Shown: positions 38,310 to 61,060 of the stretch, piece by piece | How the letters are laid out: each line of letters opens with the position of its first letter | How positions within the stretch are numbered: position 1 is the first letter of the stretch | Assembly: GCA_900473805.1 (NCBI GenBank) | Contig: UCMS01000006.1 | Location: forward strand, 419,736-483,735 | Length of the DNA: 64,000 nucleotides | Origin: Hyphomicrobiales bacterium | GTDB lineage: Bacteria > Pseudomonadota > Alphaproteobacteria > Rhizobiales > Rhizobiaceae | Direction of reading: 5' to 3' | The notes under the pieces: model-generated | The model's input: the letters and a program-made list of their open reading frames with translations, nothing else | Database searches by the model: none | What the model was told of the DNA's origin: nothing | Position numbers and translations under genes: made by a program

Positions 38310-40022
38310 TCAGAACAGGAAGTATCGCTGCGCCATCGGCAGCTTGGTCGCCGGTTCGCAGGTGAGCAGCTCGCCATCGGCCCGCACTTCATAGGTCTCC
38401 GGATCGACCTCGATATGCGGCGTCAGGTCGTTGTGGATCATCGACTTCTTCGAGATGCCGCCGCGCGTGTTCTTGACCGCGACCATCTGCTTGGCGGTGC
38501 CGAGACGGTTGGCGAGCCCGCCATCCAGCGCCGCCTGGGAGACGAAGGTGACGGACGTATTGGTACGCGCCTTGCCGAAGGAGCCGAACATCGGCCGGTA
38601 ATGCACCGGCTGCGGGGTCGGGATCGAGGCATTCGGGTCGCCCATCGGAGCTGCCGCAATCATGCCGCCGAGCAGCACCATATCGGGCTTCACGCCGAAG
38701 AAAGCCGGGTTCCAGATGACGAGGTCGGCGCGCTTGCCGATTTCGACCGAGCCGATCTCGTGGGACAGACCGTGCGCGATGGCGGGGTTGATCGTGTATT
38801 TGGCGATGTAGCGCTTGACGCGGACATTGTCGTTGTCGCCTGTCTCGCTCGGCAGGCGCCCACGCTGGCGCTTCATCTTGTCGGCCGTCTGCCAAGTCCG
38901 GATCGCGACCTCGCCGACGCGGCCCATGGCCTGGCTGTCGGAGGAGATGATCGAGAAAGCGCCGATATCGTGCAGGATGTCTTCCGCCGCGATCGTTTCC
39001 TTGCGGATGCGGCTTTCGGCAAAGGCAATATCCTCAGGGATCGACGAGGACAGGTGATGGCAGACCATCAGCATGTCCAGATGCTCGGCGATCGTGTTGA
39101 CCGTATAGGGCCGCGTCGGGTTGGTCGACGACGGGATGACATTCAGTTGACCGCAGATCTTGATGATGTCGGGCGCATGGCCACCGCCCGCCCCTTCCGT
39201 ATGGAAGGCATGGATGGTGCGGCCCTTGATCGCGCCGACCGTATCCTCGACGAAGCCCGACTCGTTCAGCGTATCCGTGTGGATCATCACCTGAACGTCA
39301 TACTGGTCGGCAACCGATAGGCAGCAGTCGATGGCACCGGGCGTGGTGCCCCAGTCCTCGTGCAGCTTGAGCGAAGTGGCGCCGGCCAGCACCATTTCCT
39401 CGAGCGCCCCCGGTAGCGAGGCATTGCCCTTGCCGGCAAAGGCGAGGTTCATCGGGAAAGCATCCGCCGCCTCGATCATCCGTGCGATGTGCCAGGGGCC
39501 GGGCGTGCAGGTGGTGGCGAGCGTGCCATGGGCGGGACCGGTGCCGCCGCCCAGCATGCAGGTGAGGCCGGACATCAGCGCCTCCTCGATCTGCTGAGGG
39601 CAGATGAAGTGGATATGGGCGTCCATGCCGCCGGCGGTGATGATCTTGCCTTCGCCGGCAATTGCTTCCGTGCCCGGACCGACGATGATGTCGACGCCGG
39701 GCTGGGTGTCCGGATTGCCGGCCTTGCCGATCGCAACGATCCGGCCGTCCTTCAGGCCGATATCCGCCTTCACGATCCCCCAGTGGTCGAGGATCAGCGC
39801 ATTGGTGATGACCGTATCCACGGCGCCGTCGGCCCGGGTCACCTGGCTCTGGCCCATGCCGTCACGGATGACCTTGCCGCCGCCGAACTTCACCTCTTCG
39901 CCATAGGTGGTGAAATCCTTCTCCACCTCGATGAACAGTTCCGTATCGGCAAGACGCACCTTGTCGCCCTTGGTCGGACCGAACATTGAAGCATAGGCGG
40001 CGCGGGACATCTTGAAGGACAT
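38310..40022 (-). CDS. ureC: Urease subunit alpha (catalytic)
   Basis: Full-length 570-residue urease alpha chain. Nickel and active-site elements are intact: [12 protein letters not shown] (H-x-H), the carbamylated lysine in [41 protein letters not shown], the flexible-flap region [21 protein letters not shown] and the metal Asp further on. It hydrolyses urea to ammonia and carbamate in the cytoplasm as (alpha-beta-gamma)3. AAGGAA precedes the ATG. Two extra genes separate it from ureB upstream, a rhizobial arrangement. Confidence 0.98.
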
Positions 40023-44483: not shown

Positions 44484-45179
44484 TCATACGGTCAGATGGC
44501 GGCGCGCCTCCGGCGTATCCAGCGTCTCGGCCGCCCCCTGATGCACGATCTCGCCGCGATCCATGATGTAAACGTGATCGGCCAGCTCGCGGCAGAAATC
44601 GAGATATTGCTCGACGAGCAGGATCGCCATGCCGGTGGTATCGCGCAGATAGCGGATGGCGCGGCCGATATCCTTGATGATCGACGGCTGAATGCCTTCG
44701 GTCGGCTCGTCCAGCACCAGAATCTTCGGTCGGGTAACCATGGCCCGCCCGATCGCAAGCTGCTGCTGCTGACCACCCGAGAGGTCGCCGCCACGCCGCG
44801 ACAGCATGCTGTCGAGAACCGGAAACAGGCTGAAGATGTCGTCGGGGATATAGCGGTCCTTGCGGTCGAGCGGCGCGTAGCCGGTTTCGAGGTTCTCCTT
44901 GACCGTCAACAGCGGAAAGATCTCGCGCCCCTGTGGCACATAACCGACCCCCGTGCGCGCCCGGTTGAACGGAGCCATGCCGTTGAGCTTGGTGCCATTG
45001 AAGGTGATCGTTCCGGCCGACACCGCATGTTGGCCGGTGATGGCGCGCAAGAGCGACGACTTGCCGACCCCGTTTCGCCCGAGCACGCAGGTGATCTTGC
45101 CCATCTCGGCATTGATCGACACGCCGCGCAATGCCTGGGCGGCGCCGTAATGGAGATTGACGTTTTCGACTGTCAGCAT
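44484..45179 (-). CDS. urtE: Urea ABC transporter ATPase UrtE
   Basis: A 231-residue LivF-type ATPase starting MLTVENVNLHYGAAQALRGV. Walker A is GRNGVGKSSLL, the signature LSGGQQQQLAIGRAM, and Walker B ILVLDEPTEGIQPSII; the EGIQPSII stretch is typical of UrtE. It powers high-affinity urea uptake. It is last in the urt operon and separated from urtD by a 144-base repeat block. Confidence 0.95.
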   Translation of the reverse strand: MLTVENVNLHYGAAQALRGVSINAEMGKITCVLGRNGVGKSSLLRAITGQHAVSAGTITFNGTKLNGMAPFNRARTGVGYVPQGREIFPLLTVKENLETGYAPLDRKDRYIPDDIFSLFPVLDSMLSRRGGDLSGGQQQQLAIGRAMVTRPKILVLDEPTEGIQPSIIKDIGRAIRYLRDTTGMAILLVEQYLDFCRELADHVYIMDRGEIVHQGAAETLDTPEARRHLTV

Positions 45180-45202
45180 GGGTTTGTCCCCGTTGTCTTG
45201 TT

Positions 45203-45320
45203 CCCACCTCCCCCTTGAGGGGGAGGTCGCAGCAAAGCTGCGGGTGGGGGTGATCCCTCTGCAATCAGTCACCCCACCCCGGCGCTTTGCGCCGACCCTC
45301 CCCCTCAAGGGGAGGGTGAG
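45203..45320. repeat. RIME-like composite repeat between urtD and urtE
   Basis: It contains CCTCCCCCTTGAGGGGGAGG, then GCGGGTGGGGGTGA, a short spacer, CACCCCACCCCGGCGC and finally CCTCCCCCTCAAGGGGAGG. The same order of modules occurs at 24225-24375 and 48960-49085. It sits within an operon and can form two strong hairpins in the mRNA. Confidence 0.8.
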
Positions 45321-45323
45321 CCA

Positions 45324-46079
45324 TCACCGCCCCAAATAGTTCTCGATGACCTTCTGGTCATTCGAGACGAAATCGATCGTTCCCTCGGCCAGCACCGAGC
45401 CTTCCGCCAGGCACGTCACCTTCACCCCGAGATCCCGAATGAAGCCCATGTCGTGTTCGACGACGACGACGGAGCGGGTCTTGGCGATTTCCTTCAAGAG
45501 AATGGCCGTCTCCGCCGTCTCGGCATCGGTCATGCCGGCGACGGGCTCGTCGACGAGCAGTAGCTTGGGTTCCTGCGCCAGCAGCATGCCGATCTCCAGC
45601 CACTGCTTCTGGCCATGCGAAAGATTGGCCGCGAGCTCATCCTTGCGATGGGTGAGCCGCACCGTCTCCAGGATCTCCTCGATGCGCGCCTTGTCCTCCG
45701 GTGACAGCCGGTAGAAGAGCGTCGCGAATACCCCGCGCTTGCGGTTCAGTGCCAGTTCCAGATTGTCCCAGACGGTATGGCTTTCGAACACCGTCGGCTT
45801 CTGGAATTTTCTGCCAATGCCGAGCTGCGCAATCTCGGCCTCGTCCTTCTTCGTCAGGTCGATCTTGCCGCCGTCGAAGAAGACGTCGCCGGTGTCAGGC
45901 CGCGTTTTGCCGGTGATGATGTCCATCATCGTCGTCTTGCCGGCGCCATTCGGGCCGATGATGGCCCTGAGTTCACCGGGTTCGACGATGAAGGAGAGCG
46001 AGTTCAGCGCCTTGAAACCGTCGAAGGAAACCGACACGCCGTTGAGATAGAGCAGGCTCGATGTTGTCTGGTCGCTCAT
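45324..46079 (-). CDS. urtD: Urea ABC transporter ATPase UrtD
   Basis: A 251-residue LivG-type ATPase. Walker A is GPNGAGKTTMMDIITG, the signature NLSHGQKQWLEIGMLLAQ (SHGQ, as usual in UrtD), Walker B LLLVDEPVAGMTDAET and the switch VVVEHDMGFIRDLG. It pairs with UrtE to drive the UrtB/UrtC channel. It ends 3 bases before the repeat block and follows urtC by 4 bases. Confidence 0.96.
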   Translation of the reverse strand: MSDQTTSSLLYLNGVSVSFDGFKALNSLSFIVEPGELRAIIGPNGAGKTTMMDIITGKTRPDTGDVFFDGGKIDLTKKDEAEIAQLGIGRKFQKPTVFESHTVWDNLELALNRKRGVFATLFYRLSPEDKARIEEILETVRLTHRKDELAANLSHGQKQWLEIGMLLAQEPKLLLVDEPVAGMTDAETAETAILLKEIAKTRSVVVVEHDMGFIRDLGVKVTCLAEGSVLAEGTIDFVSNDQKVIENYLGR

Positions 46080-46083
46080 GGTT

Positions 46084-47253
46084 TCACTCCGCAGCCACGG
46101 GGGTCGTTTCGGGTTTCACGTCGGTATTCGCCGCATCCTTGTCCGCCTCGCGGGCATAATCTCTGCGCTTGGAGAGATAGGCCTGGACCGTGCCGACGAT
46201 GCCCTTGGGCAGGAAGAGCGTGACGCAGATGAACAGTCCGCCCAGGGCAAACAGCCAGAGATCGGGGAAGGCACCGGTAAAATAGCTCTTGCCGAGGTTC
46301 ACGAGGATTGCCCCGATGATCGGCCCGATCAGCGTGCCGCGTCCACCGACGGCCGTCCACACGACGACTTCGATCGAGTTGGCCGGGGCAAATTCGCCGG
46401 GATTGATGATGCCGACCTGCGGTACGAAGAGTGCCCCCGCAATGCCCGCCATCATCGCCGAGACGACGAAGGTGAAGAGTTTGATGTTCTCGACCCGGTA
46501 ACCGAGGAAACGCACCCGGCTTTCAGCATCGCGCACACCCACCAGCACCTTGCCGAACTTCGAACGGGTGATGGCGGAGGCGAGGATCAGGCACAGCGCC
46601 AGAAACAGCGCCGAGAGCATGAAAAGCACGGCGCGCGTGCCGTCGGCCTGGACATTGAAGCCGAGGATTTCCTTGTAGTCGGTGAGGCCGTTATTGCCGC
46701 CAAAGCCCATGTCGTTGCGGAAGAAGGCCAGAAGCAACGCATAGGTCATCGCCTGCGTGATGATCGACAGATAGACGCCATTGACGCGGGAGCGGAAGGC
46801 GAACCAGCCGAAGACGAAGGCGAGCAGACCCGGGACCAGCAGAACCATGGCCATGGCGACGGGGAAGTAATTCATCCCATGCCAGAACCAGGGCAGTTCC
46901 TTCCAGTTCAGGAAGACCATGAAGTCAGGCAAAATCGGGTCGCCATAGACGCCGCGGGAACCGATCTGGCGCATTAGATACATGCCCATCGCATAACCGC
47001 CGAGCGCGAAGAAAGCGCCATGGCCGAGCGAGAGAATGCCGCAGTAGCCCCAGACCAGGTCGAGTGCGAGCGCCAAGAGCGCATAGCAGAGATATTTGCC
47101 AAGCAGCGACACCACATAGGTTGGAACATGCAGTGCGCTGTCGGGCGGCGTCAGCAGGTTGAGTGCTGGCACCAGCAGGGCAAAGCCCAGGAGAACGCCG
47201 ATGGCGATGACGATCTTGCCTTCGAGTGCGCGCAGGATGAAGCCGCTGATCAT
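46084..47253 (-). CDS. urtC: Urea ABC transporter permease UrtC
   Basis: A 389-residue LivM-type permease with about ten TM helices, the conserved GYCGILSLGHGAFFALGGYAMG segment and the coupling region GVRDAESRVRFLGYRVENIK. The C-terminus is charged and extends about 50 residues beyond the last helix. Its ATG overlaps the urtB stop (ATGA). Confidence 0.95.
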   Translation of the reverse strand: MISGFILRALEGKIVIAIGVLLGFALLVPALNLLTPPDSALHVPTYVVSLLGKYLCYALLALALDLVWGYCGILSLGHGAFFALGGYAMGMYLMRQIGSRGVYGDPILPDFMVFLNWKELPWFWHGMNYFPVAMAMVLLVPGLLAFVFGWFAFRSRVNGVYLSIITQAMTYALLLAFFRNDMGFGGNNGLTDYKEILGFNVQADGTRAVLFMLSALFLALCLILASAITRSKFGKVLVGVRDAESRVRFLGYRVENIKLFTFVVSAMMAGIAGALFVPQVGIINPGEFAPANSIEVVVWTAVGGRGTLIGPIIGAILVNLGKSYFTGAFPDLWLFALGGLFICVTLFLPKGIVGTVQAYLSKRRDYAREADKDAANTDVKPETTPVAAE

Positions 47254-48854
47254 GCTTCCACCGCCCTTCCCTTGAGCGCGAAGAGCCCGCGCGGTCGTTT
47301 TTGAATGAAGAGAATGATCAGGACGAGTACGAGGATCTTGCCCAGCACCGCCCCGACCGAAGGTTCGAGGAACTTGTTCAGCACGCCGAGCGACAGCGCG
47401 CCGACGAAAGTGCCCCAGAGATTGCCGACGCCGCCGAACACCACGACCATGAAACTGTCGATGATGTAGGACTGGCCGAGGTTGGGCGAGACGTTGTCAA
47501 TCTGGGACAGCGCCACGCCGGCAATCCCGGCAATCCCGGACCCGAGCGCGAAGGTGAAGGCGTCAACCCAGGGCGTGCGGATGCCCATGGACGAAGCCAT
47601 GCGGCGGTTCTGCGTGACGGCGCGCATCTGCAGGCCGAAGGACGAACGCTTCATCAAGGCTAACAAGGCGAAGAAGATCGTGAGAGAAAACAGCACGATC
47701 CACAGCCGGTTCCAGGTGATCGAGAGGCCGCCGAGCGCAAACGAGCCGGACATCCAGGAGGGATTGCCGACTTCCTGGTTCGTCGGGCCGAAGATGGTGC
47801 GGATCGTCTGCTGCAGGATGAGCGAAATGCCCCAGGTGGCGAGCAGCGTCTCGAGCGGCCGGCCATAGAGGAAGCGGATCACGCCACGTTCGATGATCAA
47901 GCCCACGGCGGCCGTCACCAGGAAGGCGACGGGCAGCGCGATCGCCAGCGACCAGTCGAACAGTTCAGGATAGTTGGTGCGAATAACCTGCTGGACGACG
48001 AAGGTGGAATAGGCGCCGATCATCACCATCTCGCCATGCGCCATGTTGATGATGCCCATGACGCCGAAGGTGATGGCAAGGCCGATGGCCGCCAGCAACA
48101 GCACCGAACCGAGCGAGATGCCGTACCAGACGTTCTGCCCCATATCCCAGAACAGGAGCTGCCCCTCGATTTTGCTGATTGCCGCATCGAGATCCGGCTT
48201 CAGGCTGTCGTCGATGGTCGACGACACCGACATCAGGATGCCGATCGCCTCACGCCCGCCGAGCGACGCGACGGTGGCGATGGCGGCACGCTTGTCATCG
48301 GCCGAACGATCGGACGCAAGCACGGAGACGGCGCGCGCCTCTTCCATGCGCGCCTTGACCTCCGAGTCGGCCTCGGTGGCGAGCGCCGTCTCGATCAAGG
48401 CAAGATTCTCCGCACTCGGCGACTGCAACACCGCTTGGGCGGCGGCGAGGCGCACGCTGCGATCAGGGCTCAAGAGCGTTAACCCGCCGAGTGCTGAGCG
48501 GATCGCTCGACGCAGGGAGTTGTTGACCTTGATCTTGGTAAAGGCGCCCTTCGGCTCCTCGCCGACCGTCTCGCCAGTCAGCGGGTCGATGGCCGCGAGA
48601 TTGCTGCCGGCAGCTTTGGTGATGAAGACCTGGTTGTCCGACTTGCGGACATAGAGATCGCCCTCGGCAAAGGCTTCGAGAGCGGGAACGACGCGGGCAT
48701 CGGCGGTCGCCGCAATCTGCCCGAGAAGCTCTTCGGCCTGCTTGAAATTCGCCTTTCCGAGCGCGTTCAGGAGTTCGCGCGGATCGCTCTGCGCAAAGGA
48801 GGGCGCGGCGAAGGAAAGAAGCAGGAATACGAGTGTAATGAAACGAATGAGCAT
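47250..48854 (-). CDS. urtB: Urea ABC transporter permease UrtB with N-terminal extension
   Basis: A 534-residue protein. The C-terminal ~300 residues are a LivH-type permease (FGVMGIINMAHGEMVMIGAYSTFVVQ; DSFMVVVFGGVGNLWGTFVGA). The first ~220 residues are a signal peptide (LIRFITLVFLLLSFAAPSFAQ) and a helical HEAT/Armadillo-like periplasmic region with repeated Leu/Ala helices (SVRLAAAQAVLQSPSAENLAL), as known for UrtB of Proteobacteria. The extension probably contacts the binding protein or regulates the channel. Confidence 0.95.
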   Translation of the reverse strand: MLIRFITLVFLLLSFAAPSFAQSDPRELLNALGKANFKQAEELLGQIAATADARVVPALEAFAEGDLYVRKSDNQVFITKAAGSNLAAIDPLTGETVGEEPKGAFTKIKVNNSLRRAIRSALGGLTLLSPDRSVRLAAAQAVLQSPSAENLALIETALATEADSEVKARMEEARAVSVLASDRSADDKRAAIATVASLGGREAIGILMSVSSTIDDSLKPDLDAAISKIEGQLLFWDMGQNVWYGISLGSVLLLAAIGLAITFGVMGIINMAHGEMVMIGAYSTFVVQQVIRTNYPELFDWSLAIALPVAFLVTAAVGLIIERGVIRFLYGRPLETLLATWGISLILQQTIRTIFGPTNQEVGNPSWMSGSFALGGLSITWNRLWIVLFSLTIFFALLALMKRSSFGLQMRAVTQNRRMASSMGIRTPWVDAFTFALGSGIAGIAGVALSQIDNVSPNLGQSYIIDSFMVVVFGGVGNLWGTFVGALSLGVLNKFLEPSVGAVLGKILVLVLIILFIQKRPRGLFALKGRAVEA

Positions 48855-48892
48855 GTTGTTGTCCCCCGGTTGGCGGGGCGGCGGAGCTCGTA

Positions 48893-49085: not shown

Positions 49086-49096
49086 AGGAAAGCCGT

Positions 49097-50386
49097 TCAG
49101 CTACCCTTGCCGCCGCACTTGCCGGTGGCAACGTTGAAGTTGCCGCATTCCATCGGCTTGCGCCAATCGGAGATCAGGTCCTTGGAGTCGGGCAGGTAAT
49201 CCGACCACTCGTCGCCAACGACCGACGGGGTCTGCTGGACGATTTCGAACTGGCCGTCGGCCTGGATTTCGCCGATCAGGACCGGCTTGGTGATGTGGTG
49301 GTTCGGCATGACGGTCGAATAGCCACCCGACAGGTTCGGGACGGCAACGCCGATGATCGAGTCGAGAACGGCGTCGGTGTCGGTGGTTCCGGCAGCTTCG
49401 ACGGCCTTAACCCAGGCGTTGAAGCCGATATAGGCGGCTTCCATCGGGTCGTTGGTCACGCGCTTGTCGTTCTTGGTGAAGGCGTGCCAGGTCTTGATGA
49501 ACTCGGCATTGACCGGGGCATCGACGGACTGGAAGTAGTTCCAGGCAGCGAGGTGACCGACGAGCGGGGCCGTGTCGAGGCCGGCGAGTTCTTCTTCACC
49601 GACGGAGAAGGCGACGACCGGAATGTCTTCAGCCTTGATGCCCTGGTTGCCCAGTTCCTTGTAGAACGGAACGTTCGCGTCACCATTGATGGTCGAGACG
49701 ACGGCGGTCTTCTTGCCTGCCGAGCCGAACTTCTTGATGTCGGAGACGATGGTCTGCCAGTCGGAGTGACCGAACGGAGTATAGTTGACCATGATGTCTT
49801 CTTCGGCAACGCCCTTGGACATCAGATAGGCTTTGAGGATCTTGTTGGTCGTCTGCGGATAGACGTAGTCGGTACCGGCGAGAACCCAGCGCTCGACGCC
49901 TTCGTTTTCAGCCAGGTAGTCGACGGCCGGGATCGCCTGCTGGTTCGGAGCCGCCCCCGTGTAGAAGATGTTGCGCGAGGATTCTTCACCCTCGTACTGC
50001 ACCGGGTAGAAGAGGATGGAATTGAGCTCTTCGAAAACAGGCAGGACGGACTTGCGCGACGACGAGGTCCAGCAACCGAAAACGGCAGCGACCTTGTCCT
50101 TGGAAATCAGCTCGCGGGCCTTTTCGGCAAACAACGGCCAGTCGGAGGCCGGGTCGACCACGACGGCTTCGAGCTGCTTGCCTAGAACGCCACCCTTCTT
50201 GTTCTGCTCGTCGATGAGCATCAGCATGGCGTCTTTCAGCGTCGTTTCCGAGATCGCCATCGTGCCCGACAGCGAGTGGAGAACGCCGATCTTGATGGTG
50301 TCGTCTGCGGCAAACGCGCCGTGGAAGGCGGTTGTCGACAGCATGGCGCCGAGAAGCGCGCCTGTCAGTTTCATCTTCATGGACAT
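49097..50386 (-). CDS. urtA: Urea ABC transporter substrate-binding protein UrtA
   Basis: A 429-residue exported protein with signal peptide ending FHGAFAADD, then IKIGVLHSLSGTMAISETTLKDAMLMLIDEQN, the typical UrtA start. Further family blocks are VAAVFGCWTSSSRKSVLPVFEEL, LFYPVQYEGEESSRNIFYTGAAPNQQ and SGGYSTVMPNHHITKPVLIGEI. It is the first gene of the urt operon. The leader carries a perfect inverted repeat close to the start codon. Confidence 0.97.
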   Translation of the reverse strand: MSMKMKLTGALLGAMLSTTAFHGAFAADDTIKIGVLHSLSGTMAISETTLKDAMLMLIDEQNKKGGVLGKQLEAVVVDPASDWPLFAEKARELISKDKVAAVFGCWTSSSRKSVLPVFEELNSILFYPVQYEGEESSRNIFYTGAAPNQQAIPAVDYLAENEGVERWVLAGTDYVYPQTTNKILKAYLMSKGVAEEDIMVNYTPFGHSDWQTIVSDIKKFGSAGKKTAVVSTINGDANVPFYKELGNQGIKAEDIPVVAFSVGEEELAGLDTAPLVGHLAAWNYFQSVDAPVNAEFIKTWHAFTKNDKRVTNDPMEAAYIGFNAWVKAVEAAGTTDTDAVLDSIIGVAVPNLSGGYSTVMPNHHITKPVLIGEIQADGQFEIVQQTPSVVGDEWSDYLPDSKDLISDWRKPMECGNFNVATGKCGGKGS

Positions 50387-50480: not shown

Positions 50481-50496
50481 TACGTCGTTTGACGTA
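50481..50496. promoter_or_regulatory. Inverted repeat TACGTC-N4-GACGTA upstream of urtA
   Basis: Perfect 6-base arms around GTTT, about 95-110 bases before the urtA start. The size and symmetry suit a dimeric regulator; the nearby LuxR-type response regulator is a candidate. Confidence 0.55.
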
Positions 50497-51226: not shown

Positions 51227-53763
51227 CCGTGCCTACCGTCGACCTGTCGAATTGCGACCGTGAACCGATCCATATCCCTGGCAGTATCCAGCCCCATGGT
51301 TGTCTGCTTGCCTGCGATCCCGGCATCACCGTGGTCAACCGTTACTCCGCCAATGCCAACGCTATGCTCCGCGCCGAGGGCGCGCTGAAGGGGCGGCATA
51401 TTGCCGACTTGCTCGGCGACGAAGCGACCCACGATCTGCGCAATGCCATCGCGCAGGCCCCGGATCCAAGCCGCCCCGCCGTCATAGCCCATCTGCGGCT
51501 GCCCAACGGCGATCATTTCGACATCGCCGTACACCGCCAGCACGACGGCGCCATCCTGGAATTCGAACCGTCCCTGCGCCGTACGCAACCGCTCCAATTG
51601 GCCCGTGAGATGATCGGCCGCGTCAAGGACATCGCCGACATCGATCTGTTGATCTCATCCTCGGCCAGGTTGGTACGAACGGTCCTCGGCTATGACCGGG
51701 TCATGGTCTATCGCTTCGAGGAGGATGGATCCGGGAAAGTTGCAAGCGAAGCCAAGCGCCCGGATCTCGAAAGTTTCCTCGGCCAATACTTTCCGGCCAC
51801 GGACATCCCCCAGCAGGCCCGCATCCTCTATATGCAAAACCCAATCCGTGTCATTTCAGACGCACGCGGTACCCGCGTCAGCCTGCTGCCGGAAGAAGAC
51901 GAGATCAGTCTACCGCTCGACCTCTCCTTCGCCCACTTGCGCAGCGTTTCCCCGATCCATTGCGAATATCTGCGCAACATGGGCGTGGCCGCGTCGATGT
52001 CGATCTCTCTGATCCTCGACGGCAAGCTCTGGGGCCTCATTGCCTGCCATCACTATGCGCCGAAAACGCTCACCATGTCTGAGCGGATCGCAGCCGAAAT
52101 GTTCGGCGAGTTCTTCTCGTTGCATCTCCTTGCCCTGCGACAGAAGCGCAAACTCGACATCTCGACGGAAGCCCGCCGCGCGCTCGACCGCTTCCTCCAG
52201 TCGGCCTCGCACCAAACGGACGTCGATGAGATTTTGGCGAGTGCCCTGCCAGAATTTCAGAAGCTGTTGGCCTGCGATGGTGTCGGCCTCTGGATGAAGG
52301 ACCGCTGGACCGCGATCGGCACGGTGCCGCCTTCCGGCGAGGAAGCAGAACTCGCGCGCTTCGTCGGCGAAACCTCCGATGGCCGCATCTGGGCGACGAA
52401 GTCCCTGTCGACCGACTGTCCCGAAGCGGATTATCCCGAAATCGTCTCCGGCGTACTGGCCGTTCCCCTGTCGCAGATCCCGCGAGATTATCTGTTCTTT
52501 TTCCGCAAAGAGCGTTTGCAGACCTTGAACTGGGCCGGCAATCCGGAAAAAACCTATGATGTCGGCCCGCTCGGCGACCGGCTGACGCCGCGCAAGAGTT
52601 TTGCCATTTGGAAGGAGACGGTGCGTCATCAGGCTGAGCCTTGGCAGGACGCAGACCTGGAGATTGCCGAGGCGATCCGGTCCGCCACCGTCGAGATCGT
52701 CCTGCATCACAACGAACTGATGCAGGAAGAGCGCAGCAAGGCGGATGTTCGTCAGCGGATGCTGAACGAGGAATTGAACCATCGCGTCAAGAACATCCTG
52801 GCCGTGATCAAGTCGCTGGTTGCAGCACCAGGACAGGACGAGGTACCGATAGACCACTATATCGGCTCCCTGCGGGGCCGCATCCATGCACTCTCCCATG
52901 CCCATGATCAGTTGACGCGCGGGGACGGTGGCGGTTCGCTATCCGATCTGCTGCAGGCGGAACTCCTGCCTTATCGCGGCGGCCTCGACACGCTGTCGCT
53001 GAAGGGCGGAGCCGTGACCCTTGACGCGCGCGCCCATGCCGTTGCCGCGCTCGTCATCCACGAACTTTGCACCAATGCCGCGAAGTATGGAGCCTTGTCT
53101 CGGACGGGGGGAACGCTATCCGTTGAATGGCAGCGGACGGCAGACGACGATTGCCTGATCCGCTGGCAGGAAAGCGGCGGCCCTACCGTTGGCCCGATCG
53201 GCCGTAAGGGCTTCGGCACGGCGCTCATCGAACGCAGCATTCCTTATGACCTTGGTGGTACCAGCCATCTGGATTATAAACCGGAAGGTCTAACCGCGGA
53301 ATTCTGCATTCCCGGTCGATTCCTGAGTTGGGAGACTGCTGCAATTACCCAAGAGCACCCGTCCGCTGAGACATCAGGCCCGACCGCAGAGAGCAAGCCG
53401 CTGCAACCCGGCCTGCCCGTGCTTCTGGTCGAGGATCAGGTGCTCATTGCCATGGACGCGGAGATGATGCTGGCCGATGCCGGGCTGGAGAACGTCGTGA
53501 CGGCGAGTTCCAGCGCCGATGCTCTCAACCGGCTGAAGACCTTTACGCCCTCGATCGCCATTCTCGACATCAATCTCGGTCGCGACACCTCGGTGCCGGT
53601 TGCCGAGGAACTGTCCAGGCTGGGCATTCCCTTCGTGTTTGCCACGGGCTACGACGACCGCTCTATCGTGCCAGAAGGATTTGCCGATGTCCCGGTGGTT
53701 CGCAAACCCTACGATTCGGTGGCTTTGTTGAAAGCCCTGTCGGACCGCTTGCAGAGCGCCTAA
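51220..53763 (+). CDS. bphP: Bacteriophytochrome: PAS-GAF-PHY, HWE histidine kinase, C-terminal receiver
   Basis: An 847-residue photoreceptor. The biliverdin-linking cysteine is Cys12 (DLSNCDREPIHIPGSIQPHG). GAF motifs FPATDIPQQARILY and HCEYLRNMG (chromophore His) are intact, and the PHY tongue PRxSF reads RLTPRKSFAIW. An HWE/HisKA_2 kinase follows at about 515-710 (LNHRVKNILAVIKSLVA), then a receiver at about 730-845 (VLLVEDQVLIAMDAEM; phospho-Asp in AILDINLG). The HWE kinase with fused receiver resembles the Agp2 branch of Agrobacterium, which contains bathy phytochromes; spectral type cannot be read from sequence. Confidence 0.96.
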   Translation: MLTVPTVDLSNCDREPIHIPGSIQPHGCLLACDPGITVVNRYSANANAMLRAEGALKGRHIADLLGDEATHDLRNAIAQAPDPSRPAVIAHLRLPNGDHFDIAVHRQHDGAILEFEPSLRRTQPLQLAREMIGRVKDIADIDLLISSSARLVRTVLGYDRVMVYRFEEDGSGKVASEAKRPDLESFLGQYFPATDIPQQARILYMQNPIRVISDARGTRVSLLPEEDEISLPLDLSFAHLRSVSPIHCEYLRNMGVAASMSISLILDGKLWGLIACHHYAPKTLTMSERIAAEMFGEFFSLHLLALRQKRKLDISTEARRALDRFLQSASHQTDVDEILASALPEFQKLLACDGVGLWMKDRWTAIGTVPPSGEEAELARFVGETSDGRIWATKSLSTDCPEADYPEIVSGVLAVPLSQIPRDYLFFFRKERLQTLNWAGNPEKTYDVGPLGDRLTPRKSFAIWKETVRHQAEPWQDADLEIAEAIRSATVEIVLHHNELMQEERSKADVRQRMLNEELNHRVKNILAVIKSLVAAPGQDEVPIDHYIGSLRGRIHALSHAHDQLTRGDGGGSLSDLLQAELLPYRGGLDTLSLKGGAVTLDARAHAVAALVIHELCTNAAKYGALSRTGGTLSVEWQRTADDDCLIRWQESGGPTVGPIGRKGFGTALIERSIPYDLGGTSHLDYKPEGLTAEFCIPGRFLSWETAAITQEHPSAETSGPTAESKPLQPGLPVLLVEDQVLIAMDAEMMLADAGLENVVTASSSADALNRLKTFTPSIAILDINLGRDTSVPVAEELSRLGIPFVFATGYDDRSIVPEGFADVPVVRKPYDSVALLKALSDRLQSA

Positions 53764-53855
53764 CCCCCCGACGCCACATTCCCCCTGGAAAGGCAGGGTT
53801 GCCGAACAGCGTCAACCCCGCTACGTTCCCTTTATGTTCTGACATGGGGAGCGCT

Positions 53856-54314
53856 ATGCGGGCCTTGGAATCGTTTATCCTGGAAGCAAAGGCGGCCTGC
53901 TATGTCGGCGGCAAGACGGCAGAAACGCAGGCATCACGCCGGGCAGCCCACGACATCACCTACCGGCGCGGACCTTTCGGCTATCTCGACAGCTATTATG
54001 GCGGCACCGATTTCCTCGGCCAGGAAGTCGTCTGGAAGAATGACGAACCGGTGTGGGCCCTCAATTATTATGGCCGCATCCTCGAACCCGGTCTGATCAA
54101 TGGCGAGCGGGCCGGCACGGTGATCCGTCAGGCACTCAGTGCCCTCTATCAGGAAGGTCGCTTTCTCGGTGGCTTCACTTTCCAGCATGCCTTCGGGGAA
54201 TATATCGACGAATCCATCGGCGATGTCGCAAGCTTTCAGGGCGTGGAACGCATTTGCGTGAATGGACGGCTGTCCTACCAGCTGGATTATCACGGGGGCC
54301 TCGTCAAACCCTGA
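53856..54314 (+). CDS. DUF5680-like hypothetical protein
   Basis: A 152-residue protein starting MRALESFILEAKAACYVGG. It continues with HDITYRRGPFGYLDSYYGGTDFLGQEVVW and PVWALNYYGRILEPGLINGE, rich in Gly and Tyr, typical of DUF5680. The start at 53856 follows GGGGAG. No signal peptide. The function is unknown. It lies 92 bases after bphP and 92 before the hybrid kinase, on the same strand. Confidence 0.78.
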   Translation: MRALESFILEAKAACYVGGKTAETQASRRAAHDITYRRGPFGYLDSYYGGTDFLGQEVVWKNDEPVWALNYYGRILEPGLINGERAGTVIRQALSALYQEGRFLGGFTFQHAFGEYIDESIGDVASFQGVERICVNGRLSYQLDYHGGLVKP

Positions 54315-54406: not shown

Positions 54407-57400
54407 ATGCCGGCACGCCAACGCATCATCCCCGTCCGCCGGGAGTATAACCGCTGGGTCGCCAACCAGACTCTGGAAGACTACGCGCTCCGCTTCACGG
54501 CCAAAAGCGCACGAAAATTCTCGTCCAGCCGCATATCCCAAACGGCGATCGGCGCGATCTCCTTCCTTGCGTTGGAAGCGATCGGCGGCACGATCACCAT
54601 TGCCTACGGGACCACGAACGCTTTCTTTGCCATCATTGTTGCTGCGGTGCTGATGCTGCTGGTTGGTGTGCCCATCAGCCGTTATGCCATCCGCCACGGC
54701 GTCGACATCGATCTGCTGACCCGCGGCGCCGGCTTCGGCTATATCGGCTCGACGATCACCTCGCTGATCTATGCCAGCTTCACCTTCATGCTCTTTGCCA
54801 TCGAGGCCTCGATCATGACCAAGGCGCTGGAACTCGCTTTCGGCATACCACTCTGGCTCGGCTACATCATCTCCGCCGTCGTGGTCCTGCCACTGGTGAC
54901 CTATGGGATCCGCATGATCTCGAAATTCCAGCTGTTGACCCAGCCTTTCTGGATCGTACTCAACATTCTGCCATTCATCTTCATTGCCTTCCTCGACTGG
55001 GAAAAGATCGACCTCTGGCGCGCCTTTGCCGGTGTGGGCCATTCGAACGCCCACATGGGCAGCGCTGCCCCTTTCGACCTCCTCGAATTTGGCGCGGCGT
55101 CCGCCGTCATCCTGGCCCTGATGCCGCAGATCGGCGAGCAGGTGGACTTCCTGCGCTTCCTGCCGCCCGAGGGGGCACGCAAGCTCCATCACCGCATCGC
55201 GATCTTCCTCGCAGGCTCCGGTTGGGTGGTGCTGGGCGTACCGAAACTGCTGGCGGGCTCATTCCTTGCCGTCCTGACGCTGTCGACGGGCGTACCCATC
55301 GGTGAGGCAGCCGATCCGGCCCATATGTACGTCGCCGCCTTCGGCTACATGATCCCGAACGAGACGGCCGCGATGCTGCTGATGGCCGGCTTCGTGGTAA
55401 TTTCCCAGCTGAAGATCAATGTGATGAATGCCTATGCAGGCTCGCTCGCTTGGTCGAACTTCTTCTCGCGCCTGACCCACAGCCATCCCGGCCGCGTCGT
55501 GTGGCTCGTTTTCAACGTCGCGATCGCCCTGCTTCTTATGGAGCTCGGTATCTACGGCCTGCTTGAGGAAACGCTCGGCATCTTCTCGATCATTGCGATG
55601 AGCTGGCTCTGCGCCATCTCCGCCGATTTGTTCATCAACAAGAACCTTGGCCTTTCGCCGCCGGGTATCGAGTTCAAGCGCGCCCATCTCTACGACATCA
55701 ACCCGGTCGGCTGCGGCACCATGCTCCTGTCGGCCAGCCTGGCGCTCGCCGCGCATTTCGGCGCCTTCGGCAGCCTTCTCGCCTCGCTGTCGACCTTTGT
55801 GACCCTCATCGCCTTTCTCATCTCTCCGCTGATCGCCTGGGCGACGGCGGGCAAGTTCTATCTCGCGCGCAAACCCCGCCAGAGCTGGAAGAATCAGACC
55901 GGTATCACCTGTTCAATCTGCGAACATCCTTTCGAGCCGGAGGACATGGCCTGGTGTCCGGCTTACGCCGCGCCGATCTGTTCCCTGTGTTGCACACTGG
56001 ACAGCCGCTGCCACGACATGTGCAAGCCGCATGCAAAGATCAACGCCCAGGCAGGCGCTGTCGCCCGCACCTTCCTGCCGGCCGTGCTCTTGGAAAAGTT
56101 CTCCACGCGGCTCGGCCGTTACGCCCTGACTGCCATGGCATCGATCTCGCTCATTGGGGCGATCCTTGCCCTCATCGCGCATCAGGTGAACGTGGCAACA
56201 CCCGCAATGACCGACGTCGTCAACCGCACGGTGCTGGTGGTCTTCTTCATCTTCGCCATCATCGCCGGTATCGTCTCCTGGTTCTACGTACTCGCCCATG
56301 ACAGCCGACTGGTGGCCGAGGAGGAATCCTCGCGCCAGAACACCCTGCTGCTCAAGGAAATCGCAGCCCACCGCAAGACAGACGCCGCCCTGCAGAACGC
56401 CAAGGAGACGGCAGAGGCGGCCAACCGCGCCAAGAGCCGGTATGTGGTGGGGCTTTCCCACGAGCTGCGAACCCCGCTCAACGCGGTGCTCGGCTATGCC
56501 CAGATTTTGGAGCGCGACGAGACCATACCCCTCCCCCGGCAATCGGCGATCAAGGTCATCCGCCGCTCTGCCGACCACCTGTCCGGTCTGATCGACGGGC
56601 TGCTGGACATTTCGAAGATAGAGGCCGGCCGCCTGCAGGTCTTCTCCAACGAAGTCAACATCCAGGATTTTCTCGACCAGCTCATCGACATGTTTGCTCC
56701 CCAGGCCGCGGCCAAGGGCATCCTCTTCGAGCACCAGCGCTCGCGCAACCTGCCGCTTTACGTCCGCACAGACGAGCGCCGCATCCGCCAGATCCTCGTC
56801 AACCTGCTGTCCAACGCCATCAAGTTTACCGACGAAGGCACGATCCGCTTCACGGTCGACTATCGCAGCCAGGTGGCCACCTTCACCGTCAGCGACACCG
56901 GCCGCGGCATCGCGGAAAAGGACCTGACCCGCATCTATGAACCCTTCCAGCGCGGCGAGGCCGACAATATTCGCCCGCAGCCGGGCCTTGGCCTGGGGTT
57001 GACCATCACCAAACTGCTGACCCAGACGTTGGGCGGCGAAATCTCGGTGGTCAGCGAGCGAGACAAGGGATCGACTTTCAGGATCCGCCTGATGCTGTCG
57101 GCAATCGACCGGCCGAACACGGCGCCGGCCCCCGAACGCAAGATCGTCTCCTATACGGGCCCGCGCCGCACCATCGTCGTCGTCGACGACAACGAGGACC
57201 ATCGCGAACTGATGCGCGAGGTACTGGCGCCGCTGGACTTCGTCGTGCTGACGGCAGCCGGTGGCCTCGAATGCCTGACGCTCATCGAGGGTGTGAAGGC
57301 GGACCTCTTCCTGGTCGACATCGCCATGCCCGGCATGAACGGCTGGCAACTGGTTGAGAAGTTGCGCGATGCCGGGCAGAAGGCACCGATCCTGATGCTG

Positions 57401-57790
57401 TCCGCCAATGTTGGCGATGCCCCGGCCCCCGGCGGCGAGGGTCACGACGACGCGATCACCAAGCCTGTGGACATCTCGCGCCTGCGCGACAAGCTCGCCC
57501 GCTTCCTCGGTCTCGACTGGATTTATGCCGACGATCCGCGCCTGTTGCAGCCCGCGCTTCAACCGCAAAAGCCGGTGTCACCGGGAGCGGCCCATCTGGA
57601 GGAGTTGATCAGTCTCTGCGACATCGGCTACATCCGCGGCATCGAATCCAAGCTTGCCGAACTGGCGGGACTGGGAAGTAACGCCGCATTCGTCGAGACC
57701 GCCCGTGCCCATGTCCAGGCTTTCGACCTCGCCGGTCTGCGCAGCTTCCTCACCTCCTTCGAAAGCGCCAGGGAGGCCATCGATGGCTGA
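54407..57790 (+). CDS. NCS1-permease-like hybrid sensor histidine kinase with Cys-rich domain
   Basis: A 1127-residue multi-domain protein. Residues ~40-490 form a 12-TM transporter of the cytosine/purine/allantoin permease type (NQTLEDYALRFTAKSARKFSSS start; TITIAYGTTNAFFAIIVAAV). Residues ~500-545 are a compact Cys/His cluster (CSICEHPF, CSLCCTLD, CHDMCKPH), likely zinc-binding. Two further TM helices (~570-640) lead to a HisKA domain (phospho-His in GLSHELRTPLNAVLGY, ~680), an HATPase (NLLSNAIKFTDEG; DTGRGI; PGLGLGL), a receiver (VVVDDNEDHRELM; phospho-Asp in LFLVDIAMPGMNGW) and a ~90-residue C-terminal helical region. It overlaps the response-regulator start. Likely senses or gates on a nitrogenous solute. 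Confidence 0.95.
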   Translation: MPARQRIIPVRREYNRWVANQTLEDYALRFTAKSARKFSSSRISQTAIGAISFLALEAIGGTITIAYGTTNAFFAIIVAAVLMLLVGVPISRYAIRHGVDIDLLTRGAGFGYIGSTITSLIYASFTFMLFAIEASIMTKALELAFGIPLWLGYIISAVVVLPLVTYGIRMISKFQLLTQPFWIVLNILPFIFIAFLDWEKIDLWRAFAGVGHSNAHMGSAAPFDLLEFGAASAVILALMPQIGEQVDFLRFLPPEGARKLHHRIAIFLAGSGWVVLGVPKLLAGSFLAVLTLSTGVPIGEAADPAHMYVAAFGYMIPNETAAMLLMAGFVVISQLKINVMNAYAGSLAWSNFFSRLTHSHPGRVVWLVFNVAIALLLMELGIYGLLEETLGIFSIIAMSWLCAISADLFINKNLGLSPPGIEFKRAHLYDINPVGCGTMLLSASLALAAHFGAFGSLLASLSTFVTLIAFLISPLIAWATAGKFYLARKPRQSWKNQTGITCSICEHPFEPEDMAWCPAYAAPICSLCCTLDSRCHDMCKPHAKINAQAGAVARTFLPAVLLEKFSTRLGRYALTAMASISLIGAILALIAHQVNVATPAMTDVVNRTVLVVFFIFAIIAGIVSWFYVLAHDSRLVAEEESSRQNTLLLKEIAAHRKTDAALQNAKETAEAANRAKSRYVVGLSHELRTPLNAVLGYAQILERDETIPLPRQSAIKVIRRSADHLSGLIDGLLDISKIEAGRLQVFSNEVNIQDFLDQLIDMFAPQAAAKGILFEHQRSRNLPLYVRTDERRIRQILVNLLSNAIKFTDEGTIRFTVDYRSQVATFTVSDTGRGIAEKDLTRIYEPFQRGEADNIRPQPGLGLGLTITKLLTQTLGGEISVVSERDKGSTFRIRLMLSAIDRPNTAPAPERKIVSYTGPRRTIVVVDDNEDHRELMREVLAPLDFVVLTAAGGLECLTLIEGVKADLFLVDIAMPGMNGWQLVEKLRDAGQKAPILMLSANVGDAPAPGGEGHDDAITKPVDISRLRDKLARFLGLDWIYADDPRLLQPALQPQKPVSPGAAHLEELISLCDIGYIRGIESKLAELAGLGSNAAFVETARAHVQAFDLAGLRSFLTSFESAREAIDG

Positions 57791-58706
57791 AGCCGCAAAG
57801 CGCGATATCGTCCTGCTCGTCGACGACAGCCCCGATGCACTCGGTTTCCTCACGGAAGCGCTGGAAGCCTCAGGCTATTCGGTGCTGATCGCGACCTCTG
57901 GCCACGCGGCACTGTCGATCGTCGCCCGCATCAGCCCCGATCTGATCCTCCTCGATGCCGTGATGCCCGGCATGGACGGTTTCGAGACCTGCCGTGCGCT
58001 GAAGGCCGAACCGGTCGTGGCCCAGGTCCCCGTGATCTTCATGACTGGACTGACCGAGACGGAACATGTGGTAAAGGCGCTGGAATGCGGTGGCGTCGAC
58101 TATCTCACCAAGCCGATCAACATCGATGAGCTGCGCGCGCGAATCCGCGTCCATCTGTCGAACGCGCGGTCGGCTCAAAGCGCCCGCGTGGCTCTCGATG
58201 CCGCGGGCCGGCATCTGTTGGCCATCCGCGGCGACGGGCAGGTGCACTGGACGACACCACAGGCCAATCGGCTGATCGAGACCGCGACAGGTCATGCCGA
58301 GGGTATCGGCGACGTTGCCAGAGCAGCCGCCAGTTGGCTTCGGGCCCGCCGGGCCGGCACGTCGACGCAATCGGACTCCAGCTTCCCCTTCCCGGGCGCA
58401 ACCGGCCTTCCCCTCACCCTCTCCCTGCTCGGCACGATCGGCGCGGACGAATATCTTTTCCGCCTCACCTCGGCGAACCGTCAGAGCGAGGATGAGATGC
58501 TGCGCGAACGCTTCGGCCTGACGCATCGCGAAAGCGAAGTGCTGCTCTGGATCGCCAAGGGCAAGGCCAACCGCGACATCGGCGAGATCCTCGGCTTGTC
58601 CGCCCGCACGGTGAACAAGCATCTCGAGCAGATCTACGCCAAGCTGGGCGTCGAAAACCGCGCCTCGGCCGCCGTCAAGGCCGCAGATGTGTTGCGCGAG
58701 ACCTGA
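57783..58706 (+). CDS. Two-component response regulator, REC - linker - LuxR HTH
   Basis: A 307-residue regulator. The receiver (residues ~8-125) has VLLVDDSPDALGF, phospho-Asp in LILLDAVMPGMDGFETC, and the Thr and Lys switch residues (IFMTGLTE; YLTKPIN). A ~110-residue middle region of unassigned fold follows, then the LuxR-type HTH (LTHRESEVLLWIAKGKANRDIGEILGLSARTVNKHLEQIYAKLGV). Its ATG overlaps the kinase stop by 8 bases, so the pair is cotranslated. Target genes may include the nearby urt operon. Confidence 0.94.
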   Translation: MAEAAKRDIVLLVDDSPDALGFLTEALEASGYSVLIATSGHAALSIVARISPDLILLDAVMPGMDGFETCRALKAEPVVAQVPVIFMTGLTETEHVVKALECGGVDYLTKPINIDELRARIRVHLSNARSAQSARVALDAAGRHLLAIRGDGQVHWTTPQANRLIETATGHAEGIGDVARAAASWLRARRAGTSTQSDSSFPFPGATGLPLTLSLLGTIGADEYLFRLTSANRQSEDEMLRERFGLTHRESEVLLWIAKGKANRDIGEILGLSARTVNKHLEQIYAKLGVENRASAAVKAADVLRET

Positions 58707-58829: not shown

Positions 58830-59363
58830 ATGGACAATTTCGTCATCGTCACCGGATGCTCCGGCGGCGGGAAGTCAACGCTCCTCAAGGCATTGCAGGA
58901 CCGGGGCTTTGCGACAGTCGAGGAACCTGGAAGACGCATCGTCCGTCATCAGCTGGCGATCGGCGGCAGGGCATTGCCCTGGATCGATCTGAAGGCCTTC
59001 GCAGAAGAGGCAATCCGCGTCGCCCGAGAGGACCGAGATCGCATGAAGGGGCATGATGGCTGGGTCTTCTTTGATCGCAGCCTCTTTGATGCTGCCTCCG
59101 CCCTCGCATCCGCGACCGGCAACTCAGCGGCAATCAAGTCCCTGAGAGCGGACGCGCGCTATCACCGCCGCGTCTTCGCCGTCCCGCCATGGCCCGAGAT
59201 CTTCGCGAAGGATGACGAGCGCCAACACGACTTCGCAGCCGCTGTTGAGGAATATGACAGGCTCGCCACCCACTACGCAGACCTTGGGTATGAATGGACG
59301 ATCATTCCGAAAGCATCCGTCGAGGAACGTGTCGACTTCGTGCTGCGCGCCCTGCCCTGCTGA
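58830..59363 (+). CDS. AAA-type P-loop ATPase (AAA_28)
   Basis: A 177-residue single-domain NTPase: Walker A VTGCSGGGKSTLLKAL, a probable Walker B/lid (GWVFFDRSLFDAAS) and VPPWPEIFAKDDERQHDF, as in AAA_28 kinase-like proteins. These resemble nucleoside or small-metabolite kinases but lack characterised substrates. AAGGACAGGA precedes the ATG. It is isolated and followed by a terminator shared with the convergent livK. Confidence 0.85.
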   Translation: MDNFVIVTGCSGGGKSTLLKALQDRGFATVEEPGRRIVRHQLAIGGRALPWIDLKAFAEEAIRVAREDRDRMKGHDGWVFFDRSLFDAASALASATGNSAAIKSLRADARYHRRVFAVPPWPEIFAKDDERQHDFAAAVEEYDRLATHYADLGYEWTIIPKASVEERVDFVLRALPC

Positions 59364-59430: not shown

Positions 59431-60546
59431 TTATTGCGGGACGTAGGTGAACTTGCCGTCCGCGCTCTTCTTCCACTCGTACATGATGTAGCCGGGGATC
59501 TTCGGGTCGCCCTTCTCGTCGTAGGAGATGTCGCCGAGAGCGGTCGGGAACGGGCCCTTTTCCTTCATAGCCGTTGCGACGGTTTCGGCGTCGACCGAAC
59601 CGGCAGCCTTGGCGGCACCGGCGATGACCTGCATAGCAGCATAGGAGTAGAGCGTGTAAGCTTCCGGGTTGAAGCCGGCAGCCTTGAACTTCTCGACGAG
59701 TTCCTTGTTGGCCGGGTTCAGGGTCGGATCCGGGCCGAAGGTGTTGAGTGTGCCTTCGACGGCGTCGCCGGCGATCGAGGCCAGTTCGTTCGAAACGATA
59801 CCGTCACCCGAAACGAGCGTTGCCTTCAGGCCCTGGTCAGCAGCCTGACGGATGATCAGACCAGCTTCGGTGTGGAGACCACCCCAGTAGATGATCGAAA
59901 CGCCGGCTTCCTTCATCTTCGCGATCAGCGCGGAGAAGTCCTTGTCGCCAGTCGTGACGCCTTCGTACATGACTTCGGTCAGACCACCGGCATTCATCGC
60001 CTTCTTGGTTTCATCGGCGAGACCCTGGCCATACGGGGTCTTGTCGTGAACGATGGCGATCTTGGCGTCCTTGAACTTTTCAACGAGGTAGGCACCGGCA
60101 ACCGCACCCTGCTGGTCGTCACGGCCGCAGGTACGGAAGGTGTTCCACAGACCACGCTCGGTGAAGACCGGGTTGGTCGCAGCCGGGGTAATTTCGAGGA
60201 TGCCGTTTTCGGCATAAACTTCCGACGCCGGGATCGAGACGCCCGAGTTGAAGTGACCGATCACGAACTTGACGCCGTCGGCAACGAACTTGTTGGCAAC
60301 GGAAATGCCCTGCTTCGGATCGGAGACGTCGTCGCCGAGCACGATCTTGATCTGTTCGCCATTGATGCCGCCAGCGGCATTGATGTCGGCGGCAGCCTGT
60401 TCGGCGCCCTTCTGGAGCTGTGCACCGAAGGCAGCGTTCGGACCGGTCAGCGGACCGGCGACGCCGACGAGGATGTCAGCCCAGGCGTTGCCGCTGAAGG
60501 CAACCATGGCCGACAGCGCAACCGCCGAGAGGAGAGACTTCTTCAT
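59431..60546 (-). CDS. livK: Branched-chain amino-acid ABC transporter substrate-binding protein
   Basis: A 371-residue Leu/Ile/Val-binding protein with signal peptide [24 protein letters not shown], then [33 protein letters not shown]. Further family blocks are [23 protein letters not shown] and [17 protein letters not shown]. It delivers branched-chain amino acids to LivHM. GGGAG precedes the ATG. It is downstream of the rest of the liv genes, separated by 142 bases, so it may have its own promoter. Confidence 0.95.
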
Positions 60547-60688
60547 ACTGTTACTCCCAGTTTTTTATGCGGGTTTGGGTTTGAAAACCGTGCGCAATAC
60601 CCGCTCTCACTGCGCCGGAAAACTGTTCCACTCGTTATTTCAAGCCGAGGCTCTCTGTCGCCAATCTGTGACAGAAAACAACACCTTG

Positions 60689-61042
60689 TCAATCTTTGTT
60701 CTTCCACGAAAGATACGATGTTCTCTCATAGAGCCAGTAATAGTTGTCGACCATCTGGGTCGTCCGCCGCGCCTGAAATCCGGCGAGCGCAAAGGCCAGA
60801 AGCAGCACCACATCGATGACGTAGTAGAACGGGCTGATGAACGGCCCGCCGAACAACGAAAAGTGCAGGAACCGCATCGCAACACCCAGTCCGAGCACTG
60901 CGATGAACACGCTGCCATAGCTCTGCCAGTTCTCCGCAACTGCCTTGCCCGTGCGCCAGGCAGTCCAGAAACCAAGCAAGAGCACCAGGAACCTCAGCAC
61001 GAGCCGAACGGTGGTGTCGCTTTCGAAAAACAATCCTTGCAT
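60689..61042 (-). CDS. DUF6867-like small membrane protein of the liv locus
   Basis: A 117-residue protein with three TM helices (LVLRFLVLLLGFWTAWRTG, VFIAVLGLGVAMRFLHFSLF, VIDVVLLLAFALAGFQAR) and a conserved polar C-terminus (TQMVDNYYWLYER). This family is found between livF and livK in rhizobia and may be an accessory part of the transporter. GGAGGA precedes the ATG; it follows livF by 18 bases. Confidence 0.8.
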   Translation of the reverse strand: MQGLFFESDTTVRLVLRFLVLLLGFWTAWRTGKAVAENWQSYGSVFIAVLGLGVAMRFLHFSLFGGPFISPFYYVIDVVLLLAFALAGFQARRTTQMVDNYYWLYERTSYLSWKNKD

Positions 61043-61060
61043 GTCAAATCCTCCGCGCGC

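Follow-up and report, generated by a model that had tools for sequence, protein, structure and literature searches.

A 64,000-nucleotide stretch of the genome of a Hyphomicrobiales bacterium (contig UCMS01000006.1 of assembly GCA_900473805.1; hereafter the window) encodes a hybrid sensor histidine kinase of 1127 aa whose N-terminal domain is NCS1-like (54407..57790, plus strand) and, overlapping it, a REC-LuxR response regulator (RR) of the NarL/FixJ type (307 aa from its likely ATG; 57783..58706, plus strand), which are read here, with moderate confidence, as a two-component system in which an NCS1-fold receptor detects urea or short amides so that their uptake can be controlled. In soil and water much nitrogen is supplied by urea, a major source, and the pair would serve small-amide nitrogen scavenging, of urea in the genome of the window and of formamide or short amides in relatives. 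The NCS1-fold domain, akin to permeases of the nucleobase and hydantoin type, would act as the receptor for urea or amide arriving from the periplasm or the cytoplasm; its occupancy would be relayed to the kinase by way of an eight-cysteine module and two extra helices, and the kinase would control phosphorylation of the regulator. Once phosphorylated, the regulator would bind a palindrome of 7-2-7 layout upstream of urtA, most likely activating urtABCDE.

The kinase gene is intact, a single frame encoding 1127 residues, and the union of permease, cysteine cluster, extra membrane helices, HisKA, HATPase and receiver in one open reading frame (ORF), which the initial annotation had read from the letters, was confirmed by Pfam domains and signature residues. 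The permease-like domain (residues ~40-484; 54524..55858, this and the following all on the plus strand) is succeeded by the eight-cysteine module (residues 502-540; 55910..56026) and by two further transmembrane helices that lead to the kinase (residues ~568-633; 56108..56305), seen in the structural model and as extra hydrophobic segments at 571-599 and 600-633; the catalytic portion comprises HisKA (residues 676-741; 56432..56629), with phospho-acceptor H685 within SHELRTPLN, HATPase (residues 788-897; 56768..57097), with its N and G boxes, and a receiver (residues 923-1030; 57173..57496) with D971. The regulator ORF as listed begins at a TTG at 57654; the ATG at 57783 is likelier, which makes the two genes overlap by the last 8 bases of the kinase gene, and the overlap of the two genes described earlier stands. 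Pfam identifies Response_reg (1.8e-29) and GerE (1.7e-18) in the regulator, separated by ~120 residues, and the recognition helix reads RTVNKHLEQ. A chance fusion is excluded, because the kinase is conserved across many genomes, those of other classes included: it was found in 65 of 100 genomes of a close-relative set (own genome and all 59 of the same genus included), in 20 of 289 genomes of the class (own included) and, when extensive matches alone are counted, in 52 of 398 genomes of the phylum (own and other classes included). These counts exclude, from raw tallies of 68, 21 and 59, three weak matches to free-standing permeases, one free-standing permease, and seven weak, fragmentary or permease-less matches, respectively; no relative was matched in viral contigs. 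Among the matches listed, the closest named ones are from Rhizobium and Ciceribacter, at 94-95% identity.

Conserved gene linkage is the first line of evidence for the proposed role. Neighbourhoods were compared at 100 loci, comprising the best 80 of at least 593 relatives (L051-L130) and 20 chosen from the genome-set matches, with several matches left out (L131-L150). The regulator gene adjoins the kinase gene at all 100, and at 93 the kinase gene diverges from the gene of an ABC transporter binding protein, UrtA in 73 cases and a formamide-type protein in 20, across gaps of 75 to 7792 bases (58 of 93 under 800 bases). Formamide-type partners consist of a transporter with a formamidase and sometimes an aliphatic amidase; FmdA is present in 18 of the 20 loci (that of L122 scores 756.6 bits against a cut-off of 500), the other two, L127 and L141, being cut by contig ends. 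A second sample of 37 stretches from the phylum matches (L190-L226; some 20 further kinase genomes, mostly of the window's own order, left out, and L226 a contig of 4.8 kb that holds just the kinase and RR genes) contains 30 full hybrid kinases (L190-L219), every one of which, by manual grouping, adjoins fmd (19) or urt/ure (11) genes. Co-occurrence with nitrogen genes in other genomes, set beforehand as the test that could refute the idea, was thus found in both samples, and the nitrogen-scavenging setting that had been suspected is borne out by linkage to urea and formamide genes. The range of solutes first put forward (purine, pyrimidine, hydantoin or urea) narrows, among the partner genes screened for, to those of partners for urea uptake and urease or of the formamide type, with urea retained.

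The second line of evidence is a palindrome before the transporter operon. The urtABCDE operon of the window (44484-50386, minus strand) encodes a genuine urea ABC transporter by NCBIfam, all five components passing their cut-offs, and ~95 bases separate the start of urtA from the proposed operator upstream, TACGTCGTTTGACGTA (50481..50496, no strand assigned). A dyad scan of intergenic sequences first returned TAC-N10-GTA and its extensions, from which the consensus TACGTCA-N2-TGACGTA was derived; TACGTCGTTTGACGTA departs from it by one mismatch, has no second match in the window even when 3 mismatches are allowed (at 3, chance would give 0.81), and is the sole exact TACGTCN4GACGTA in the genome. 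The intergenic scan was confined to 78 loci, those whose gaps are shorter than 800 bases; there, palindrome scores of at least 12 of 14 occur in 56 regions (35 of 39 of urea type, 21 of 39 of formamide type), against two of 2340 shuffles. Upstream of urtA, scores of at least 11 of 14 were recorded in 73 of 78 kinase-bearing loci and in none of 19 genomes with a genuine urtA and no kinase, six of them from the window's own family and 13 from other families of the order (one, G575, has just a weak match to a frame of 489 aa); two further Urt-like genes likewise score below 11 and a third could not be scored. A single additional genomic site, with one mismatch, between ORFs that by translation resemble an acetyltransferase and a decarboxylase, was set aside as probably due to chance.

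Half-sites also tend to change together with the recognition helix of the regulator, RTVxKHLEQ, as judged from the sequences of these groups, which are clades and so represent few independent events. Where x is N, as in the window, half-sites are mostly TCA or TCG; x = T accompanies a TAG half-site in 9 of 10 urea-type loci; x = H or K (L203 and L216, one locus each) accompanies CCA in at least one half-site; and x = D accompanies TACGCAA in 5 of 8 Bradyrhizobium-type loci, the remaining three having just 76-79 bases of intergenic sequence.

Several observations weigh against the assignment of the pair to these transporters and of the palindrome to the regulator. Seven of the 100 loci have no divergent transporter gene: L062 and L111 lie at contig edges, in L143 and L146 UrtA is encoded farther along on the kinase strand, L124 carries AmiE, and L100 and L145 nothing of the kind. 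When one mismatch is tolerated, 2 sites are present in the genome, against 7 for a reversed control, so the argument for an operator rests on place, not number. Of the intergenic regions, 18 of 39 of formamide type score below 12, some of these holding variants, as do 4 of 39 of urea type; 13 of the 19 kinase-less genomes belong to other families, and relatedness may explain part of the contrast in palindromes; L068 and L117 break the pattern of helix and half-site, combining N with TAG. The spaced form TACG-N8-CGTA was not found before the binding-protein gene in 19 of 97 N-helix loci and in all 8 D-helix loci (the start having been set by the full length of homologues, probably too far upstream in the D loci), and 13% of shuffled sequences satisfy this loose rule. 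Five kinase-bearing urea loci (L147, L150, L208, L213, L214) lack the palindrome; in the kinase tree none of the five belongs to the main urea clade of the Alphaproteobacteria. Their existence would suit an explanation in which the palindrome belongs to another regulator of urt, with the kinase pair controlling something else nearby, and nitrogen regulators, NtrC among them, control urt in some bacteria; the explanation is nonetheless very unlikely, given the occurrence of the site in 73 of 78 loci that have the kinase and in none of 19 genomes that lack it, the tendency to co-variation of its half-sites with the helix of this particular regulator, and its 7-2-7 layout of inverted heptamers, which matches sites of the NarL family.

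The nature of the proposed receptor was established by profile and fold comparison, as Pfam is blind to it: residues 1-500 match nothing up to E 10, PF02133 and SSF included, three divergent relatives likewise have no PF02133 match up to E 10, and a PDB sequence search with the permease part gave nothing significant. A profile of 17 sequences, compared by hhalign with four NCS1 (PF02133) proteins, aligned over profile positions 35-474 with a probability of 98.2 and an E value of 5.9e-14. In the AlphaFold2 model (mean pLDDT 75.6) the permease part has twelve membrane-type helices, of which those at 40-50/53-67 and 225-236/239-251 are broken; it superposes on CodB (Z 30.3, rmsd 3.9, 392 residues aligned) and Mhp1 (Z 26.6, rmsd 4.2, 428 aligned; second Mhp1 entry Z 23.9) ahead of the best family outside NCS1 (Z 23.0); Foldseek likewise ranks CodB and Mhp1 at the top, with SSS structures further down the fold lists. 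Among free-standing relatives, L050 and L222 exceed the PF02133 cut-off and L225 has no match to it. On profile comparison, predicted fold and free-standing relatives, the permease part is a divergent branch of NCS1; the kinship proposed in the initial annotation is borne out, and the structure prediction and alignment recommended there recovered a LeuT fold of the NCS1 type.

That the permease acts as the sensory module, as had been supposed, is likely. In chained alignments, Mhp1 S312 and T313, side chains of its sodium site, map onto K336 and I337, and Q121 onto E133, the placement of K336 hinging on a one-residue gap. Among 134 aligned sequences (the window kinase included), K336, N338, N341, E133, Q241, E244, Q245 and D247 are each present in all, I337 in 133, and F53 and E57 in 133 with one gap, and the position of the Mhp1 aromatic residue W117 is occupied by L (79) or F (55). 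The sodium site appears to have given way to an invariant lysine, which points to a receptor no longer driven by sodium. A more elaborate version, which may be entertained tentatively, is that a branch of NCS1 became dedicated receptors, with a lysine in place of the sodium site, a pocket tuned to the amide group of urea or formamide, about six switches of operon, and a regulator and operator that changed together.

Alternatively, the NCS1 domain could move urea or amide itself and signal by flux, as reported for CbrA with histidine. In the model the helices corresponding to TM1 and TM6 are still broken; CbrA is reported to transport histidine though its Na2 residues are not conserved (PMC7918813); and the closest free-standing permease found, L222, stands in an amidase-type operon, where genes for a CN-hydrolase, for an AmiC-like binding protein and for an AmiR/ANTAR regulator come after it. 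Such a transporting receptor appears somewhat unlikely in view of the invariant K336 at the position of the sodium-site serine and of the urea ABC transporter already nearby, neither of which precludes transport. A ligand of the purine, pyrimidine or hydantoin kind, as for classical NCS1 proteins, would be in keeping with NCS1 kinship and with a distant free-standing relative (L185:6824-10316) that adjoins a hydantoinase A gene; another distant free-standing permease, in genome G602 (L282), has an uninformative gene setting. That ligand is most improbable, however: the recurrent partners among the genes screened for, which did not include those for purines, pyrimidines or hydantoins, are urea and formamide genes, and the chained alignments place L or F at W117, though F could still stack, and E133 at Q121.

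Between sensors in urea and in formamide settings the receptor seems to have changed hands several times. On a quick FastTree of 134 kinases and two outgroups, with several weak nodes, the urea (87) and formamide (42) settings require 6 changes, and 200 shuffles required at least 28 (leaves of uncertain setting, marked '?', omitted; L143 and L146 taken as urea, L124 as formamide); the kinase and regulator pair thus seems, from this sequence tree, to have moved between the two pathways about six times. The alignment of the same 134 sequences yielded no convincing residue that cleanly separates the two kinds of sensor: positions 169, 327, 401 and 402 lean by setting, not cleanly, and the other flagged columns vary within settings. 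Either, therefore, a shared amide group is recognised, or the ligand is not the substrate itself; the latter counts against urea or amide sensing, since the ligand could be common to all settings, for example an intracellular nitrogen signal.

The eight-cysteine module bears on the same question. Its cysteines (C502, C505, C517, C525, C528, C529, C535 and C539; CxxC-x11-C-x7-CxxCC-x5-C-x3-C) are invariant in 134 of 134 sequences, and an 81-residue model (mean pLDDT 81.2) bears a weak likeness to zinc modules of the RING, FYVE, PHD and C1 kinds (Foldseek E 0.28 and VIA Z 3.7 at best), with nothing significant in searches of Pfam (best E 0.0031, Cript, six of 41 members) or of PDB sequences (best E 0.012). 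Judged by cysteine pattern and model, the module probably binds zinc, and it is probably cytoplasmic because it is placed after the twelfth helix, provided that the NCS1 topology holds. For redox input through the cluster, which the initial annotation had envisaged beside metal, nothing was found in support among these comparisons, and even the likeness to zinc modules is weak. A search of the own genome with one degenerate DNA pattern gave no second protein with the module besides the kinase.

An intracellular signal (nitrogen status, a metal such as nickel for urease, or redox state) read by this module, with the permease as an anchor or modulator, would account for the invariance of the cysteines and for sensors indistinguishable between settings. 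It would also fit the retention of the module on two kinase types, L220:7502-10183 and L221:7666-10362 carrying the NCS1 and eight-cysteine sensor module on a different, non-hybrid kinase without receiver, with FmdA nearby, and it has a parallel in soluble CbrA, which without its transporter part and highly expressed can reportedly still activate a target gene (PMC7918813). Permease residues are as invariant as the cysteines, however (E133, Q241, E244, Q245, K336, N338 and N341), which a mere anchor would not need, and a family kinase without a permease (L223:8842-10710) keeps just a remnant of the cysteine stretch, and the 19.9 kb of sequence retrieved for it includes none of the fmd, urt and ureC genes; the intracellular signal is accordingly an unlikely alternative to recognition of urea or amide by the NCS1-fold domain. 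In L223 the regulator lies on the opposite strand, and the neighbour of the L220 kinase (the only one of the two examined with Pfam) combines receiver and kinase-type domains in one protein.

Transporter-headed kinases are already known, in the SLC5/STAC and Amt forms. Among the matches listed, which covered few subscription papers, no description of an NCS1-headed kinase, or of an NCS1 version for urea or amide, was found, nor any two-component urea sensor. The SLC5/STAC kinases CrbS, RpuS and CbrA likewise have a transporter fold at the N-terminus, CrbS/CrbR and RpuS/RpuR likewise join a hybrid kinase to a LuxR-type regulator, the systems likewise control use or uptake of a small nutrient, and activation by CrbR requires an imperfect palindrome (PMC9100948, PMC7918813, PMC5715377). 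The window kinase differs in fitting NCS1 structures (CodB, Mhp1) best, not SSS, in carrying the eight-cysteine module and two helices at the place of STAC and PAS (no Pfam match to either at 0.001), and in its family's urea and formamide gene partners. In Chromohalobacter, EupR is likewise a regulator of the NarL/FixJ type that controls solute uptake and has for partner a hybrid kinase predicted to be transporter-like, although that kinase has an SSF domain with PAS subdomains and the solute is ectoine; the ammonium sensor kinase of Kuenenia likewise places a nitrogen transporter fold on a kinase, although the fold is Amt, the ligand another, and the host an anammox bacterium (PMC2964678 and PMC5764959, respectively). 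At the level of genome annotation only, a second urtABCDE operon with a LuxR-family two-component regulator is described in Ectopseudomonas guguanensis G3; a figure legend there names a hybrid kinase, and fmdA carries the adjoining locus tag (PMC13296017).

With CodB and Mhp1 the window permease part has fold and PF02133 profile kinship in common, and it differs from them in being fused to a kinase, in having K/I at S312/T313, and in being missed by PF02133. With NarL/FixJ regulators the window regulator shares REC and GerE; the spacing of these domains in NarL is shorter than the ~120 residues seen here, and NarL sites are 7-2-7 inverted heptamers with a half-site other than TACGTCA. If the interpretation holds, uptake of urea and formamide across Pseudomonadota would have a named kinase, regulator, operator and target operon, SLC5 would no longer be the one LeuT-fold family considered here to have been turned into kinase receptors, and some six natural switches would be available for studying the joint movement of sensor, regulator and DNA site; a compact switch responsive to urea or formamide would be usable as a biosensor.

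Around the pair, the window of this 4.9 Mb genome holds urtA, the urea-binding protein of the transporter (49097..50386; TIGR03407, 560.6 bits, cut-off 492.75), urtB (47250..48854; TIGR03409, 437.1 bits), urtC (46084..47253; TIGR03408, 454.1 bits), urtD (45324..46079; TIGR03411, 386.1 bits) and urtE (44484..45308; TIGR03410, 337.6 bits, with a match from residue 45 and a start that may be internal), the last four also above cut-off, and, in the same neighbourhood, ureC for the urease alpha subunit (38310..40022), all on the minus strand. The description of a urea transporter beside the kinase was thus right as to the transporter and loose as to place: urtA starts ~4 kb upstream of the kinase, and the transporter immediately downstream is liv. 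A misreading of the liv operon as the urea transporter was considered and ruled out by NCBIfam, with liv downstream and urt upstream. The liv operon for branched-chain amino acids, together with a DUF6867 gene, occupies 59431-63959 and lies beyond the kinase pair in many Rhizobiaceae loci. An AAA_28 ATPase gene (58830-59363) flanks the pair downstream, as it does in L051, L053, L061, L064, L066, L087 and L114, and a DUF5680 gene (53799-54314) lies between urtA and the kinase, as in L051 and L053. Between urtA and the kinase also stand a heme oxygenase-like gene (its Pfam match falling short of the threshold) and the gene of a bacteriophytochrome that carries an HWE kinase and a receiver (50675-53763), a pair that recurs at the same place in L051-L055, L059 and Roseibium litorale (L109) and hints at a link between light and nitrogen or at an insertion hot spot.

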